From a virus: 33,989 nucleotides of DNA. Positions 2,533-33,865 of this stretch are shown here, one piece after another. The first letter of the stretch is position 1. Each line of letters opens with the position of its first letter. The position numbers and the translations under genes were made by a program. Location of the stretch: positions 1-33,989 of the IMG/VR virus record IMGVR_UViG_3300031772_000154; one strand, given 5' to 3'. Under the pieces are notes generated by a model that was not told the origin of the DNA, did no database searches, and worked only from the letters and a program-made list of their open reading frames with translations.

Positions 2533-3605
2533 TTGCTGATCTCCTTTCGCTGATTCGTCTCGAACCGAGAGTCATCATCGATCGAAGCAATGCCAGAGCA
2601 CACGTCGTGGTACTCGCATAGGCGATTGAAGCGCAGGCACGAGGAGGGTGAACGCGGCCACGCGTCACGATCGTCGCAGTCCAAGATCATCCGCGCCGTG
2701 TCCGCCGTGTCCTTCGCGTGCGCTTCGTTGTCTCGGTCAAGCCGCACGACGGTCATGCGCTGGAAGTACCAGTTAGGACGGCCAGCGATGTCTGTTATGA
2801 GTCGTTCGCTGTACTGAGCGGGGTCCTCGTCACGCTCCCTCATGTTCGCGTAGAGCCTCGGGATTGGATCAGGCCTGGTCGGCTTGGTGTACTTACGAGA
2901 CTCTTCAGGGGTCGCCTTCAATGGCTGCATCTCGGGCTTACGGATCACGTCATAAAGAACGTCGCGCGGGTTGTGTCCGATTGTCTTGGCGGCATCGAGG
3001 TACGTGGACACTTGCGTGTCTAGGGTCGCCACGTGCCGCCAGTAATCGGACCCAGGCGAGATGTCTTGAGATGAGGTCTTGTGCTCGACCAGGTGAGTTG
3101 AACCATTGCGTGACGCGATGGCATCGATGGCCCCGCCCAAGTCGCACGTGTGTTTCATGTTCCACACCTCCCCGAAGCGGTCTTGGTCTCGGGTGAGAAG
3201 GGGGATCTTGAACTGCGTTTCCACGGCGATAGTCTCGTAACCCTCGCCACCCCATCGCGCGGTGTACCCGGCCAGCAACGCCTCAGCCTTGACCATGCTG
3301 AAAACATCAAGGCCACCGTCCACTGTTTCGGCGGAGGCACTCCCCACAGCGGCAAGCGCTGTAGCCAGTCGTCTATCCGGGTACACGGCGCCACCGCACG
3401 CCCACCACGCGTTCAGTCCGATGTGAAAGAACGTGCCGAACCGCAAAGCCTCCGTCTTGCGGCGCGGCCTTCGACGTAGCACGTAACTGAACTGATACTC
3501 ACGCGGGCAACGCCGAAACGTTGTCAGTGAAGAGTTGCTCAGCAGGGGCAGCCCAACCTTGCGCGTTCCGGTCGCTGGCTCCGTCGCGTTCATGGAGAGA
3601 GGCAT
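2529..3605 (-). CDS. Cas4/RecB-like PD-(D/E)XK exonuclease with Fe-S cysteines, 358 aa
   Basis: A nuclease expected to resect DNA ends for the recombination module. The N-terminal LSNSSLTTFRRCPREYQFSY has the SxxxxFxxCPxxY signature of RecB/Cas4 nucleases, with the first cluster cysteine. GTFFHIGLNAWW supplies the motif I histidine. GAIDAIA supplies the metal-binding Asp and LVEHKTSS the ExK motif. QVSTYL is the usual downstream Q motif. Three further cysteines in CLRFNRLCEYHDVC near the C-terminus complete a likely 4Fe-4S site. I chose ATG 3605 because translation from the upstream TTG would run through the divergent control region. No clear Shine-Dalgarno is visible. The gene has the even codon style of the tail and lysis block, not that of the Sak4-like neighbour. 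Confidence 0.8.
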   Translation of the reverse strand: MPLSMNATEPATGTRKVGLPLLSNSSLTTFRRCPREYQFSYVLRRRPRRKTEALRFGTFFHIGLNAWWACGGAVYPDRRLATALAAVGSASAETVDGGLDVFSMVKAEALLAGYTARWGGEGYETIAVETQFKIPLLTRDQDRFGEVWNMKHTCDLGGAIDAIASRNGSTHLVEHKTSSQDISPGSDYWRHVATLDTQVSTYLDAAKTIGHNPRDVLYDVIRKPEMQPLKATPEESRKYTKPTRPDPIPRLYANMRERDEDPAQYSERLITDIAGRPNWYFQRMTVVRLDRDNEAHAKDTADTARMILDCDDRDAWPRSPSSCLRFNRLCEYHDVCSGIASIDDDSRFETNQRKEISK

Positions 3606-3704
3606 ACGATCGTATCGTAGTGATGGCAACACAAAACGACTAGCCAACTAATCGGCTATGGAAACGGTCGACAGGCGCGCGAAGCAATGGTACTCATCAG
3701 GACC
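3606..3704. promoter_or_regulatory. Divergent control region between the nuclease and the HTH repressor
   Basis: This ~100-bp region separates the leftward nuclease gene from the rightward HTH gene. It holds two symmetric elements. One is the perfect 12-bp palindrome ATACGATCGTAT (3604-3615), which overlaps the nuclease start codon. The other is TAGCC-N8-GGCTA (3641-3658). Both suit binding by a dimeric lambda-type repressor, the obvious candidate being the neighbouring HTH protein. No strong -10/-35 pair stands out by eye. Confidence 0.5.
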
Positions 3705-3935
3705 ATGAAGACACTTGCGGCACGGTTGCGATGGGCGCGAGAGAAGCGCGGACTGTCCTGCGCGGAACTTGACGAAGTGGCAGACCTAACGCTTGGTCAC
3801 ACCGCAAGCGTGGAGTCGAAACGCATCGAGGTGCCAAGCACGGCCACGGCGAGCAAGCTAGCTCGCGCCCTTGATGTCGAGGTTGGCTGGCTGATCGAAG
3901 GCGGTAAGGCCCCCCAGATAGCCAAGGCTGGCTAG
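3705..3935 (+). CDS. Xre/Cro-family HTH repressor, 76 aa
   Basis: A single helix-turn-helix DNA-binding domain. The start is MKTLAARLRWAREKRGLS, then AELDEVADLTLGHTASVESKRIEVPSTATASKLARALDVEVGWLIEGG. This is the standard Xre layout of five helices, with the recognition helix near GHTASVES and the closing LARALDVEVGWLIEG. I chose ATG 3705, preceded by AGGA, over the ATG at 3687 because the domain begins at MKTLAARLR. It is the only plus-strand gene in the left part of the window. It probably represses the divergent nuclease/recombination operon and itself, the usual job of such a gene in a temperate phage. No integrase is seen in the window. Confidence 0.8.
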   Translation: MKTLAARLRWAREKRGLSCAELDEVADLTLGHTASVESKRIEVPSTATASKLARALDVEVGWLIEGGKAPQIAKAG

Positions 3936-30375: not shown

Positions 30376-30422
30376 TTGCGCGCCTTCATGATCAGCGCCT
30401 CGACGACCGTGCGAGTCATCAT
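30372..30422 (-). CDS. Possible 16-aa coupling peptide
   Basis: MMTRTVVEALIMKARK begins at an ATG that overlaps the lipoprotein stop and ends by overlap with the GTG of the zinc-ribbon gene. Both junctions are of the type used across this genome. It would bridge the two genes translationally. Too short to assess otherwise. Confidence 0.25.
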   Translation of the reverse strand: MMTRTVVEALIMKARK

Positions 30423-30952
30423 CTCATGATGCACTTGCCCGCGAGCGCACGTGCCCCGTACACCTTGGCCGTCTCGGGGCCGTAGACGTTGCATGCAGGG
30501 CTTCCCTTACACGTCCCCTGCCAAGCCCCCTGGTAACAAACGAAGGGTGTGAAGTCCGCGTTCTGACCGTACCAGTCGTTCGCGTTGGGGCACCCGACCT
30601 CGCCAGAGGCGATGACGTGGAGCGGGTCCGTGTTTGCGTTCAGAACGCAGTAAGCCTTCGCCGGTGGCGGAGGGGGCGGAGGCGGTGGCGGAGGTGGCGG
30701 AGGCGGTGGCGGAGGGGGCGGAGGCGGTGGCGGAGGGGGCGGAGGCGGTGGCACAATGGTCGCATCAGTCTCTCCGTCAACCGCGCCACCGTCCTGCGCC
30801 ACTGCTGCTTCTCCCGTGACCTCGGACATGTCTGGAGTCTGTCCAGCGTCTACCTCTGACGTCACATCCTGAACAGACGTGGGGCCAGTGGTCTCGGGTG
30901 CGGACGAGCACGCAACGGACCCAACGAGCGCGAAGGCAAAGAGTGCTCTCAT
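30419..30952 (-). CDS. Poly-proline cysteine-rich lipoprotein, 177 aa
   Basis: The signal MRALFAFALVGSVACSS has a lipoprotein-type cysteine at ~15 (weak lipobox SVAC). An acidic D/A/G-rich linker follows (TSVQDVTSEVDAGQTPD...DGGAVDGETDATIV), then 30 consecutive prolines, then a C-terminal domain with six cysteines (YCVLNA, VGCPNA, FVCYQG, GTCKG, PACNV, GKCIM), probably disulphide-linked in the periplasm or outside. Thirty prolines as a PPII rod would span about 9 nm. The linker style is like Myxococcota lipoproteins. It is coupled by ATGA to a membrane peptide and a regulator. Roles could be superinfection exclusion, spanin or surface remodelling; none is shown. The codon style is closer to the 2.5-17.9 kb block. 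Confidence 0.7.
   Translation of the reverse strand: MRALFAFALVGSVACSSAPETTGPTSVQDVTSEVDAGQTPDMSEVTGEAAVAQDGGAVDGETDATIVPPPPPPPPPPPPPPPPPPPPPPPPPPPPPPAKAYCVLNANTDPLHVIASGEVGCPNANDWYGQNADFTPFVCYQGAWQGTCKGSPACNVYGPETAKVYGARALAGKCIMR
30663..30752 (-). repeat. 21-bp tandem repeat encoding poly-proline
   Basis: About 4.3 copies of a 21-bp unit (seven proline codons: CCN in mixed use), nearly identical between copies with one third-position change in copy 2. It encodes the 30-proline stretch. In-frame length change by slippage is likely. Confidence 0.85.
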
Positions 30953-31077: not shown

Positions 31078-31275
31078 TTACTGGCTCTCCTTCGCCGCCG
31101 CCCGCGCTCGAGCCTTGCGGATCAACCATGCTTCGATGACCGCCGACATCGTCGATCCTTTCGCGAGCGCGTTCAGTTCCTTCCGCGCATCATCCGAGAG
31201 AGTGACCTCGACCCCCTTCCGCTTCCGCTTCTCTCGAGGCGTCGAATACCATTCCGAGTCTGCATTGTTTCCCAT
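31078..31275 (-). CDS. Ribbon-helix-helix transcription regulator, 65 aa
   Basis: The basic N-terminus NNADSEWYSTPREKRKRKG is followed by the RHH core: strand GVEVTLS (residues ~20-27), helix A DDARKELNALAKG, and helix B STMSAVIEAWLIRKARARAAAK, ending at residue 65. CopG/Arc-type dimers bind palindromic operators by their paired strands. The gene starts at ATG 31275, preceded by TAGGAT at 31287-31282 and by the near-palindrome AGTGTCCGGGCAGT (31303-31290), which suggests autoregulation. The same motif precedes the plus-strand genes across the region, so this is the best candidate for its reader. Confidence 0.75.
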   Translation of the reverse strand: MGNNADSEWYSTPREKRKRKGVEVTLSDDARKELNALAKGSTMSAVIEAWLIRKARARAAAKESQ

Positions 31276-31280
31276 GCTCC

Positions 31281-31303
31281 GATCCTATCACTGCCCGGAC
31301 ACT
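31281..31303 (-). promoter_or_regulatory. Promoter/operator of the RHH operon
   Basis: On the minus strand, AGTGTCCGGGCAGT (one base from the consensus ACTGTCCGGGCAGT) is followed after 2 bases by TAGGAT (31287-31282). The ATG comes 6 bases later, so a leaderless or nearly leaderless transcript is expected. The box positions are seen; function is inferred. Confidence 0.6.
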
Positions 31304-31344
31304 TGGTCGAGGCGAAACCTCAAGAAAGAAAAGATCGGTCCGCC

Positions 31345-31373
31345 TGAATAACTGTCCGTGCAGTCCGTCTTAC
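31345..31373 (+). promoter_or_regulatory. Near-palindrome promoter with no gene behind it
   Basis: TGAATA, then ACTGTCCGTGCAGT (31351-31364, one mismatch to consensus), 3 bases, then TCTTAC (31368-31373). This is the same architecture as at 31466-31494 and 31807-31835, but 4 bases later ACG replaces ATG. Confidence 0.6.
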
Positions 31374-31377
31374 CTTT

Positions 31378-31455
31378 ACGGACCGGAACTGGGGAACGGC
31401 GACCGTGCGCGATGATCTCTCGTGACGCGTCGCATCACTGGCACGGAAAAAAAAC
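31378..31455 (+). other. Possible untranslated RNA or decayed leader
   Basis: The predicted transcript from the 31345-31373 promoter covers this stretch. The only frame from the ACG at 31378 has 15 codons before TGA. It may be a small RNA or the remnant of a gene that lost its start codon. No gene is seen. Confidence 0.25.
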
Positions 31456-31494
31456 GCCCGGACAGTGAAGAACTGTCCGGGCAGTCCGTCTAAC
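31447..31494 (+). promoter_or_regulatory. Two-site promoter of the 96-aa early gene
   Basis: In order: an A8 tract (31447-31454), distal half-like site AACGCCCGGACAGT (31453-31466), TGAAGA (31466-31471), core site ACTGTCCGGGCAGT (31472-31485), 3 bases, TCTAAC (31489-31494), then 4 bases to the ATG. The two sites are 19 bp centre to centre. TGAAGA and TCTAAC are 17 bp apart. The 11-bp stem GCCCGGACAGT/ACTGTCCGGGC is perfect. Confidence 0.7.
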
Positions 31495-31498
31495 AGAC

Positions 31499-31789
31499 AT
31501 GCCCGCCAAGAAGACCGCCGATTACAAGACCGCCGACGCTCTCAAGCGTACGACCGACGTTGCTACCTACTCCTTCACGGGAGACCGCGAGACCGCCCGA
31601 TCCGCGGCGTGGGCCTTCATGCGCGCGTGTGAGACCTCGGGTCTCTCCGCGGGCTACCCCTCACTCTCCGCCCCCTACACGGTTCAGGTAGGGATCGCTA
31701 CCTGCTTCGACCGAGAGACCGCGGACACTCTCTCGAGCGGAGCGGAGGTCGTCGACTACGCGTTCGCGGGTTCCCCGTGCGAGTTCTAA
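31499..31789 (+). CDS. Early-region protein, 96 aa, unknown function
   Basis: MPAKKTADYKTADALKRTTDVATYSFTGDRETARSAAWAFMRACETSGLSAGYPSLSAPYTVQVGIATCFDRETADTLSSGAEVVDYAFAGSPCEF. A lysine-rich N-terminus leads into a small alpha/beta domain (a beta strand, a helix GDRETARSAAWAFMRACETSG, then two strands and a helix), with three cysteines. No family is recognised. The ATG follows the promoter element after 4 bases and no Shine-Dalgarno is present, so it is probably read from a leaderless mRNA. The TAA overlaps an A tract of the next promoter. Confidence 0.65.
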   Translation: MPAKKTADYKTADALKRTTDVATYSFTGDRETARSAAWAFMRACETSGLSAGYPSLSAPYTVQVGIATCFDRETADTLSSGAEVVDYAFAGSPCEF

Positions 31790-31835
31790 AAAAAACGTCC
31801 GGGCAGTGAATCACTGTCCGGGCAGTACGTCTTAC
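31788..31835 (+). promoter_or_regulatory. Two-site promoter of the 66-aa early gene
   Basis: An A8 tract begins in the stop codon of the previous gene (31788-31795), then AACGTCCGGGCAGT (31794-31807), TGAATC (31807-31812), core ACTGTCCGGGCAGT (31813-31826), 3 bases, TCTTAC (31830-31835), 4 bases, ATG at 31840. The spacings are identical to those at 31447-31494. CAGTGAATCACTG between the sites is itself a perfect palindrome around one central base. Confidence 0.7.
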
Positions 31836-31839
31836 TACC

Positions 31840-32040
31840 ATGACCAAGAACAACACCGCCTCCCTCTCCGCTCTCGAGTCGTTCACTCTCGAGTCGATCG
31901 GTCCGAACGGATCTCACTTTCAGACACTCTCGCAAGGCGCTCTCCGCTCTCTCGAGTCAAAGGGCTTGGTCGTCGTCGGTCGCGACCTCATCGCGCGGAC
32001 CGCCGCGAATCACGCGCTCGTCTTCGGGGTTGCATCATGA
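31840..32040 (+). CDS. Small winged-helix-like protein, 66 aa
   Basis: MTKNNTASLSALESFTLESIGPNGSHFQTLSQGALRSLESKGLVVVGRDLIARTAANHALVFGVAS. The stretch FQTLSQGALRSLESKGLVVVGRDLIARTA looks like a recognition helix and wing of a MarR/winged-helix type: a helix, then G-L-V-V and a beta hairpin. It may regulate phage or host genes. Initiation looks leaderless (no Shine-Dalgarno, 4 bases after TCTTAC). The TGA overlaps the ATG of the next gene. Confidence 0.65.
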   Translation: MTKNNTASLSALESFTLESIGPNGSHFQTLSQGALRSLESKGLVVVGRDLIARTAANHALVFGVAS

Positions 32041-32264
32041 CCCGCGGGTTTGTTTGGCTCTCGCGCGGCTACGCGCTGATCGTGTGTCACTCTCTCGCGA
32101 ACGCGTGCCATCTCGGGAACGATGGCGACCGCGTCTTTCAGTTTTGCTCGGAGTGTGAAGCGTGCATCGCTGGCAAGCGTTGCAACCGCATGTCGGGCAA
32201 GCCTTCACACTTGATCGTCATATCGCGCAACGGCAAGAAGCGCGCGGTCCGTCTCCGTCACTGA
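32037..32264 (+). CDS. Small cysteine-rich protein, 75 aa
   Basis: MTRGFVWLSRGYALIVCHSLANACHLGNDGDRVFQFCSECEACIAGKRCNRMSGKPSHLIVISRNGKKRAVRLRH. Six cysteines, including CSECEAC in the middle and basic C-terminus, suggest a zinc-binding fold that may touch nucleic acid. No family is recognised. The ATG overlaps the stop of the 66-aa gene (ATGA), so it is co-translated with it and has no promoter motif of its own. Confidence 0.6.
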   Translation: MTRGFVWLSRGYALIVCHSLANACHLGNDGDRVFQFCSECEACIAGKRCNRMSGKPSHLIVISRNGKKRAVRLRH

Positions 32265-32335
32265 CCGCCGCCGACCGGGCTCTAGCCTACACTCTCCGAC
32301 CGAACTTCGAGCAATCGACCGCCCGCCCCTCGACG

Positions 32336-32357
32336 ACTGTCCGGGCAGTGCTACTTT
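32336..32357 (+). promoter_or_regulatory. Operator/promoter of the helicase gene
   Basis: An exact ACTGTCCGGGCAGT (32336-32349) followed after 2 bases by TACTTT (32352-32357). There is no TGAANN box or A tract upstream. Unlike the small genes, the helicase ATG lies ~50 bases away behind its own GGAGA. The 140-bp gap 32265-32410 holds nothing else that I can identify. Confidence 0.6.
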
Positions 32358-32410
32358 GAAACTTGTCAACGCGGCGCGACAAGAGGCGCCGCAACGGAGA
32401 ACGGACCATC

Positions 32411-33865
32411 ATGAACACTCCCTCAGTTTTTCAGGCGGCGGTTTACGCGAACATCGCGAGCGGCACGGGGAACACGATCGTCGACGCGGTCGCGGGTTCG
32501 GGCAAGACGACAACGATCATGGGCGCGCTCGCGAGCGTCCCGTCGGGTTGCACGATCGCGCTCTTCGCCTTCAACAAGTCGATCGCGACCGAACTCGGCG
32601 CGCGCGCGCCGCGCGGCGTCGAGGTGAAGACGCTTCACGCGCACGGGTTCAGCGCAGTCCGTCGTGCGTTCCCTGGCGTGAAGGTCGACAACGACAAGTC
32701 GATCGCGTTGTGCGTCGCCCTCTTCGGCGCGTCCGACAATCTTCACCCTGTTCGCTCGCGTTACTCGGCGGTCGCCGACCTCGTCTCGAAGGCGAAGGAT
32801 ACGCTCGTCGCGCGCGGCGACCTCTTCGCCCTCGACGATCTGATCGACGTGTTCGGGATCGACTGCCCGGACTCCGACGACGACCGCGCGCTCTTCGTTG
32901 ACGCCGCTATGGCGGTTCTCGTTCGCTCGTCGGAAGTGACCGACGTCGTCGACTTTTCTGATATGTGTTGGCTTCCCGTCGTTCTGAACCTTCGCGTGTG
33001 GTCCTACGATCGCGTGTTCGTCGACGAGACTCAGGATCTCTCGCCGACTCAGATCGAACTCTTGCTTCTTTGCGTGAAGCGCAACGGGCGGATCTGTGCG
33101 GTCGGCGACGAGCGCCAGGCGATCTACGGGTTCCGCGGCGCCGACGTGAACACGATCCCGAACCTGATCAAGCGACTCGACGCGACCGTTCTTCCGCTCT
33201 CGATTACGTACCGTTGCGCCCGCTCGATCGCCGCGCTCGCGGCGACCGAGGTTCCTCACTTCACGGCGTCGGACAACGCCGCCGAGGGTTACGTCGGTCC
33301 GTCGAACACGGACGCGATGATCGAGGCGGCGGTCGCGGGCGACATGGTTATCAGCCGCGCGAACGCGCCCCTCATGACCCTTTGCCTAAAGTTCCTCGCG
33401 AGCGGTCGCCGCGCCTCGATCAAAGGTCGCGACGTCGGCGCGGGTATCGCTCGCCTCGTGAAGAAGTCGCGCGCCCGTTCGGTTCCCGCCTTCCTCGAAT
33501 GGTCGAAGGCATGGCACAAGAAAGAGACCGCGCGCCTCGTGAAGAGCGAGCGCCCGACCGACGCCGCCGACGACATGCTCGAATGCCTCTTCGCCCTGGC
33601 GGAAGGCGCGAAGGGCGTTCCCGAGATCCTCACGCGTTGCGACTCGCTCTTCTCCGACGAGGGCGGTCCCGAGACGAAGATCACGCTCGGGACGACTCAC
33701 AAGTTGAAGGGTCTCGAAGCGGATCGCGTGTGGATGCTCGAAGGTACCTACCGCCGAAACAAGGGCGGCGAGGAAGCGAATTGCTGGTACGTCGCCGTTA
33801 CCCGAGCGAAGTCAAGCCTTTACCTCGTCGCAAAGGAAGCCTGGAAAAAAACGCCCGGGCAGTGA
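32411..33865 (+). CDS. SF1 (UvrD-like) DNA helicase, 484 aa
   Basis: ATP-driven helicase, likely for phage DNA replication or repair. Motifs in order: I IVDAVAGSGKTTTIM (residues ~22-36), II VFVDETQDLSPTQIELL (~200), III CAVGDERQAIYGFRGAD, IV LSITYRCARSIAALA, V LGTTHKLKGLEADRVWML and VI NCWYVAVTRAKSSLYLV near the C-terminus. This is a short SF1A enzyme without large inserts or a nuclease domain. I chose ATG 32411, which has GGAGA 10 bases upstream, over the TTG at 32363. The last codons (KKTPGQ) are encoded by an A tract and a copy of the promoter motif (33850-33863). An extra partial match to the motif in the coding sequence (32862) is probably chance. Confidence 0.9.
   Translation: MNTPSVFQAAVYANIASGTGNTIVDAVAGSGKTTTIMGALASVPSGCTIALFAFNKSIATELGARAPRGVEVKTLHAHGFSAVRRAFPGVKVDNDKSIALCVALFGASDNLHPVRSRYSAVADLVSKAKDTLVARGDLFALDDLIDVFGIDCPDSDDDRALFVDAAMAVLVRSSEVTDVVDFSDMCWLPVVLNLRVWSYDRVFVDETQDLSPTQIELLLLCVKRNGRICAVGDERQAIYGFRGADVNTIPNLIKRLDATVLPLSITYRCARSIAALAATEVPHFTASDNAAEGYVGPSNTDAMIEAAVAGDMVISRANAPLMTLCLKFLASGRRASIKGRDVGAGIARLVKKSRARSVPAFLEWSKAWHKKETARLVKSERPTDAADDMLECLFALAEGAKGVPEILTRCDSLFSDEGGPETKITLGTTHKLKGLEADRVWMLEGTYRRNKGGEEANCWYVAVTRAKSSLYLVAKEAWKKTPGQ
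33845..33863 (+). promoter_or_regulatory. Distal-type operator copy at the helicase end
   Basis: An A7 tract followed by AACGCCCGGGCAGT, matching the distal sites at 31447 and 31788. It overlaps the helicase stop. The expected core site 19 bp downstream is absent, so it may serve a gene beyond the window or be a relic. Confidence 0.4.

Follow-up and report, generated by a model that had tools for sequence, protein, structure and literature searches.

A near-palindromic 14-bp motif occurs far above chance in the window, the whole stretch of 33,989 nucleotides analyzed here (a virus record of 34 kb from a tailed phage), and is confined to the regulatory region at its right end. Copies lie at the promoter of a gene for a 65-amino-acid (aa) protein, probably of the ribbon-helix-helix (RHH) type, and at the divergent plus-strand starts; we hold with moderate confidence that the RHH protein reads the motif as an autoregulatory repressor. 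When the 14-base consensus ACTGYCCGGRCAGT was scored over the whole window, three sites matched exactly, five with no more than one mismatch, and eight with no more than two, compared with 0.00, 0.01, and 0.38 sites expected from 100 dinucleotide-preserving shuffles. The copies with at most one mismatch start at positions 31290, 31351, 31472, 31813, and 32336, and the two-mismatch copies start at 31453, 31794, and 33850. All eight fall within 31290 to 33863, in the last 2.7 kb, and the first 31 kb contains no site with two or fewer mismatches. The perfect palindrome form of the motif did not occur among the aligned sites. A LexA reading was dropped because the half-sites are spaced as CTG-N6-CAG, which does not match the E. 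coli-type SOS box, CTGT-N8-ACAG.

The 65-aa protein is encoded on the minus strand (31078 to 31275, from an ATG), facing plus-strand genes for proteins of 96 aa (31499 to 31789), 66 aa (31840 to 32040), and 75 aa (32037 to 32264), followed by a UvrD-type DNA helicase (32411 to 33865). None of these three small proteins has an assigned function, and the start codons of the first two each lie 13 nt past an operator copy. The 75-aa protein is a homolog of a 63-aa gene product of a related phage, L008 (47% identity, E = 1e-18). For the helicase, the ATG at 32411, which stands behind a GGAG, is a likelier start than the TTG at 32363. The candidate autoregulatory operator, at 31290 to 31303 (AGTGTCCGGGCAGT in the gene direction, ACTGCCCGGACACT on the plus strand), ends 14 nt before the RHH ATG. 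An earlier, sequence-only reading had placed a near-palindrome at the promoter of the 65-aa gene and had described that gene as divergent from the motif-bearing genes, and both points were borne out. Its description of the RHH protein as the only regulator is correct for the right end but not for the window, in which an XRE-type helix-turn-helix protein is encoded at 3687 to 3935 (PF13560, E = 1.7e-7). Elsewhere in the window, a lipoprotein-like open reading frame (ORF) at 30419 to 30952 has a run of about 30 prolines, whose codons read as GGT/GGC-type repeats on the other strand.

The 65-aa ORF is a real gene under protein-level selection, because its differences from the L008 relative fall 9, 4, and 33 at codon positions 1, 2, and 3, respectively. 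Several weak matches agree on its probable assignment as an RHH protein, namely, to the phrog_3431 Arc-like repressor (E = 0.024), to BrnA antitoxin (E = 0.04 and 0.013), and to CopB/RepA (E = 0.048 and 0.041), all of them sub-threshold. The best plasmid match, with an E value of 0.7, was an annotated CopG protein from the Cereibacter sphaeroides plasmid p.D (AXQ96330.1), which is 56% identical over 34 residues covering the strand, helix A, and the start of helix B. AXQ96330.1 itself matches Pfam RHH_1 (E = 2.7e-6) and thus provides a bridge from the 65-aa protein to that family. The assignment made in the sequence-only reading gains from these concordant matches and from the predicted helices, but the protein reached no curated HMM cut-off and had no Pfam RHH match, its best Pfam match being a sub-threshold one to RecJ_C. 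Alignment with hhalign against the Arc and Mnt profiles returned nothing and was uninformative. The likely RHH fold would comprise a strand at about residues 20 to 26 (KGVEVTL), in which V22, V24, and L26 alternate as in a strand-like segment, helix A at 28 to 38, and helix B at 43 to 63. Structure prediction, which had been proposed as a check of the fold, returned both helices but formed no strand in the AlphaFold monomer model, and Foldseek found no RHH match; the monomers were of moderate confidence (pLDDT 67 to 69), too uncertain for a fold search. The protein has a conserved basic N-terminal arm, SEWYSTPREKRKRK, which hardly varies between the two phages (SEWYSTPR[ED]KRKRK). AmrZ, an RHH protein with an N-terminal extension, employs that extension on DNA (PMC3325190).

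The promoter-type sites, ten in the two phages when read in the gene direction, all have the 14-bp core in common, with a -10-like position shortly after the operator in each. The six cassettes that carry a gene have 13 nt between core and ATG, and the two RHH operons have 14 nt. In the RHH and helicase promoters, the core is flanked by TCGACC or TCGACG on one side and by TAGGAT, TAGGGA, or TACTTT on the other, with 16 to 17 bp between them, an arrangement suggestive of weak sigma-70 geometry with the motif filling the spacer. The proposed RHH promoter (31276 to 31310, minus strand) would have a -35 hexamer, TCGACC, at 31305 to 31310 and a -10 hexamer, TAGGAT, at 31282 to 31287, separated by a spacer of 17 bp, and its L008 equivalent reads TCGACC-N16-TAGGGA. 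The proposed helicase promoter would have a -35 TCGACG at 32330 to 32335 and a -10 TACTTT at 32352 to 32357, with a 16-bp spacer that contains the operator copy ACTGTCCGGGCAGT at 32336 to 32349. These hexamers did not pass a strict consensus promoter scan. Because the proposed -10 lies about six bases before the ATG, the RHH message may be leaderless.

Most motif copies are found inside a cassette of about 50 bp that consists of an A-run, a second half-site, the operator, CGTCTWAC, and an ATG. Cassette 1 (31447 to 31498, plus strand) has an A8 run, a left site at 31453 to 31466, the operator at 31472 to 31485, and CGTCTAAC, followed by an ATG, and it can form an 11-bp hairpin. Cassette 2 (31788 to 31839, plus strand) likewise has A8, a left site at 31794 to 31807, the operator at 31813 to 31826, and CGTCTTAC, followed by an ATG. 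No Shine-Dalgarno sequence was found at the cassette gene starts. Cassette 0 (31324 to 31373, plus strand) keeps the usual layout, with an A-rich run, a degenerate left site, the operator at 31351 to 31364 (ACTGTCCGTGCAGT), and CGTCTTAC, and has no ATG after it; over 51 nt it matches a cassette of L008 with 82% identity. The left half of a cassette (A7 plus CGCCCGGGCAGTGA) lies at 33845 to 33865 on the plus strand, and the last codons and the stop of the helicase gene are made of it. Between cassettes 0 and 1, a noncoding stretch of 82 nt on the plus strand (31366 to 31447) is identical to L008 2213 to 2294 at 69 of its 82 bases, and the whole match over 31363 to 31502 reaches 84%, above the long coding matches (68 to 81%). 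Two candidates for this stretch were rejected: a tiny ACG-started ORF, in which substitutions showed no three-base periodicity, and an RNA structure, for which the fold z score was about +0.5.

When 2.9 million viral contigs were scanned, the protein and the cassette, each used as the query, led to one and the same other contig, IMGVR_UViG_3300012045_000006 (L008, identical to L004 and L007), and no contig with the motif or the RHH protein alone was found among them. The DNA element was scanned in two forms, and all true matches went to L008. Loci L005 and L006 were set aside as tape-measure genes matched antisense, and L009, L010, and L014 were set aside as unrelated chance matches. The large terminase subunits (TerL) of the two phages are 75% identical, and the RHH proteins are 82% identical; TerL searches yielded no contig besides L008, and, at the significance limits applied, searches of named phages and of GTDB genomes gave no relative of the RHH protein. 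As judged from these sequences, conservation of the RHH-motif association is that of one lineage with two related phages. The L008 contig has four exact motif copies, each at the start of a different small gene. A further copy, degenerate on one side (GCCG), lies at its RHH-operon promoter, 14 nt before the first ATG. There, the operon opens with an 81-aa gene that overlaps the RHH gene at a GTGA. The motif stands upstream of the whole operon, so that it keeps to the promoter rather than to the gene start as such. The combination of autoregulation with a divergent set, as envisaged earlier, is visible as an arrangement of sites and conserved in one related phage, with the motif at both RHH-operon promoters and at divergent starts. 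The homolog of the 75-aa gene directly follows a cassette in L008 (1052 to 1297), whereas an unrelated 66-aa gene lies between them in the window (31788 to 32264), so that cassettes and genes reassort. In addition, a two-mismatch copy (ACTGCCCGGACATG) at L008 4082 to 4095 overlaps the TerL start codon and has no counterpart in the window, and one end of the L008 contig (300 to 600) carries repeats of GGGACATGGTTTAGTACGGAG that may be host or mobile-element sequence.

Adjacency, conservation, and geometry lead us to infer that the motif is read by the RHH protein. The motif could instead be a transcription operator read by another protein, with the RHH gene among those regulated; candidates are the XRE protein at 3687 to 3935, an off-contig regulator, and a host factor. 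An inverted repeat of about 14 bp is a usual size for Cro/CI-type dimers and would also suit the XRE repressor, which is encoded in the same contig. Moreover, neither contig is likely to be complete, and a further regulator could be encoded in the missing parts. We nevertheless regard this reading as rather unlikely, since the XRE gene has no motif copy close by, even sites with up to three mismatches coming no nearer than 794 and 8126, and the XRE neighborhood has a different palindrome, ATACGATCGTAT, at 3604 to 3615. The motif also accompanies the RHH gene in L008, a comparison that is incomplete in that L008 is without the XRE region. The ATACGATCGTAT element is a perfect 12-bp palindrome present in a single copy between the XRE gene and a divergent PD-(D/E)XK nuclease operon, and it is a possible XRE operator.

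Two other readings start from the cassettes themselves. In six cassettes of the two phages, the operator is preceded by the A-rich run and, 19 bp upstream, by a truncated left site. What is kept of this left site is the 11 bases able to pair with its right-hand partner, and the two form an 11-bp hairpin. The gene-sense strand of all six folds with an energy of -22 to -28 kcal/mol, four of the six present a terminator-like stem and T-run on the opposite strand, and runs of A7 or T7 and longer occur in the window only in cassettes or in the half-cassette at 33845. The paired sites might then be RNA hairpins instead of, or besides, operators, acting as antisense terminators (stem plus T8, minus strand) or as 5' or 3' mRNA structures that set stability or translation. 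However, any two near-palindrome copies can pair, the antisense stems of the remaining paired cassettes have C.A mismatches, and no hairpin of this kind is formed by the single sites at 31290, 31351, and 32336, which leaves the 14-bp site as the one feature that all copies share. We judge this reading distinctly improbable; any hairpin function is probably something extra in the paired cassettes and leaves the single sites unexplained. Searches of Rfam gave sub-threshold matches only, for which the cassette hairpin is responsible. Seven cassettes keep the block TGAAnnACTGTCCGGGCAGTnCGTCTWAC unchanged and their -10s (TCTWAC) are poor sigma-70 matches, as might be expected of an element for an alternative sigma factor or a phage RNA polymerase (TGAAnn-N17-TCTWAC, with an ECF-like CGTC at -10). 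The RHH and helicase sites, however, have only the 14-bp core in common, are without CGTCTWAC, and are found in both orientations relative to the gene, and no sigma factor or polymerase was noticed among the window's genes, making this reading very improbable indeed.

Under repression by the RHH protein, the reading that we favor, RHH dimers, probably as a dimer of dimers, would bind the 14-bp near-palindrome (ACTGTCCGGGCAGT at the helicase promoter). In the RHH (Arc/MetJ/CopG) superfamily, the dimer places a two-stranded sheet into the major groove of a palindromic or pseudopalindromic operator. The operator here would fill the -35/-10 spacer both at the promoter of the RHH gene and at the early promoters that diverge from it, and because the site fills that spacer, bound protein would exclude polymerase. 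At infection, the early genes, encoding the small proteins and the UvrD-type helicase, would be switched on together with the repressor, which would then limit both the early genes and itself in a negative-feedback loop. More tentatively, the cassette of about 50 bp might be a portable control module, made up of an A-run that perhaps ends antisense transcripts, paired operators, and a leaderless start. By spreading before unrelated small genes, such a module could place newly gained early genes under one RHH repressor, and it would be an independently evolved counterpart, with its reader identified, of the ESAS elements considered below.

The proposed circuit fits a well-known type, that of the autoregulatory repressor. 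Arc of the Salmonella phage P22 (immI region) is, like the window protein, a small single-domain phage RHH autorepressor, and its operator lies in the -35/-10 spacer of its own promoter, Pant, the placement proposed here. Arc has no detectable profile similarity to the 65-aa protein, the operator sequences differ, and Arc shares its promoter with ant, whereas here the controlled genes are divergent and have several operator copies. The RHH autorepressor MobC of the IncU plasmid RA3 recognizes an imperfect palindrome located between -35 and -10, and its binding becomes weaker when the palindrome is made perfect (PMC4175270). Operator placement is the same as that proposed here and the palindrome is likewise imperfect, but MobC is a 176-aa conjugation accessory protein with one operator and no repeated cassettes. 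The nearest named relative, the CopG-type AXQ96330.1, is without the long basic N-terminal arm and has an unrelated gene neighborhood. For the window protein, which is too diverged for curated models, the analysis provides a plausible operator.

In layout, the cassettes resemble the ESAS of cluster K mycobacteriophages, intergenic repeats of about 46 to 50 bp in which an imperfect inverted repeat is combined with a SigA-like promoter and which lie directly upstream of the start codons of a subset of nonstructural genes (PMC3203893, PMC11373665). The sequences are unrelated. The SAS of cluster K resembles a ribosome-binding site, whereas the window cassettes have none; the 13-bp SAS GGGATAGGAGCCC was not found before the cassette starts, where CGTCTTACTACC or CGTCTAACAGAC stands instead. 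Mycobacteriophages have been recognized since 2011 to carry start-associated repeats that contain inverted repeats, and the two ESAS papers cited here identify no reader and describe no neighboring RHH protein in that role (PMC3203893, PMC11373665). Here, similar but unrelated elements come with an adjacent, co-conserved candidate reader, and the question of what reads such cassettes becomes directly testable.
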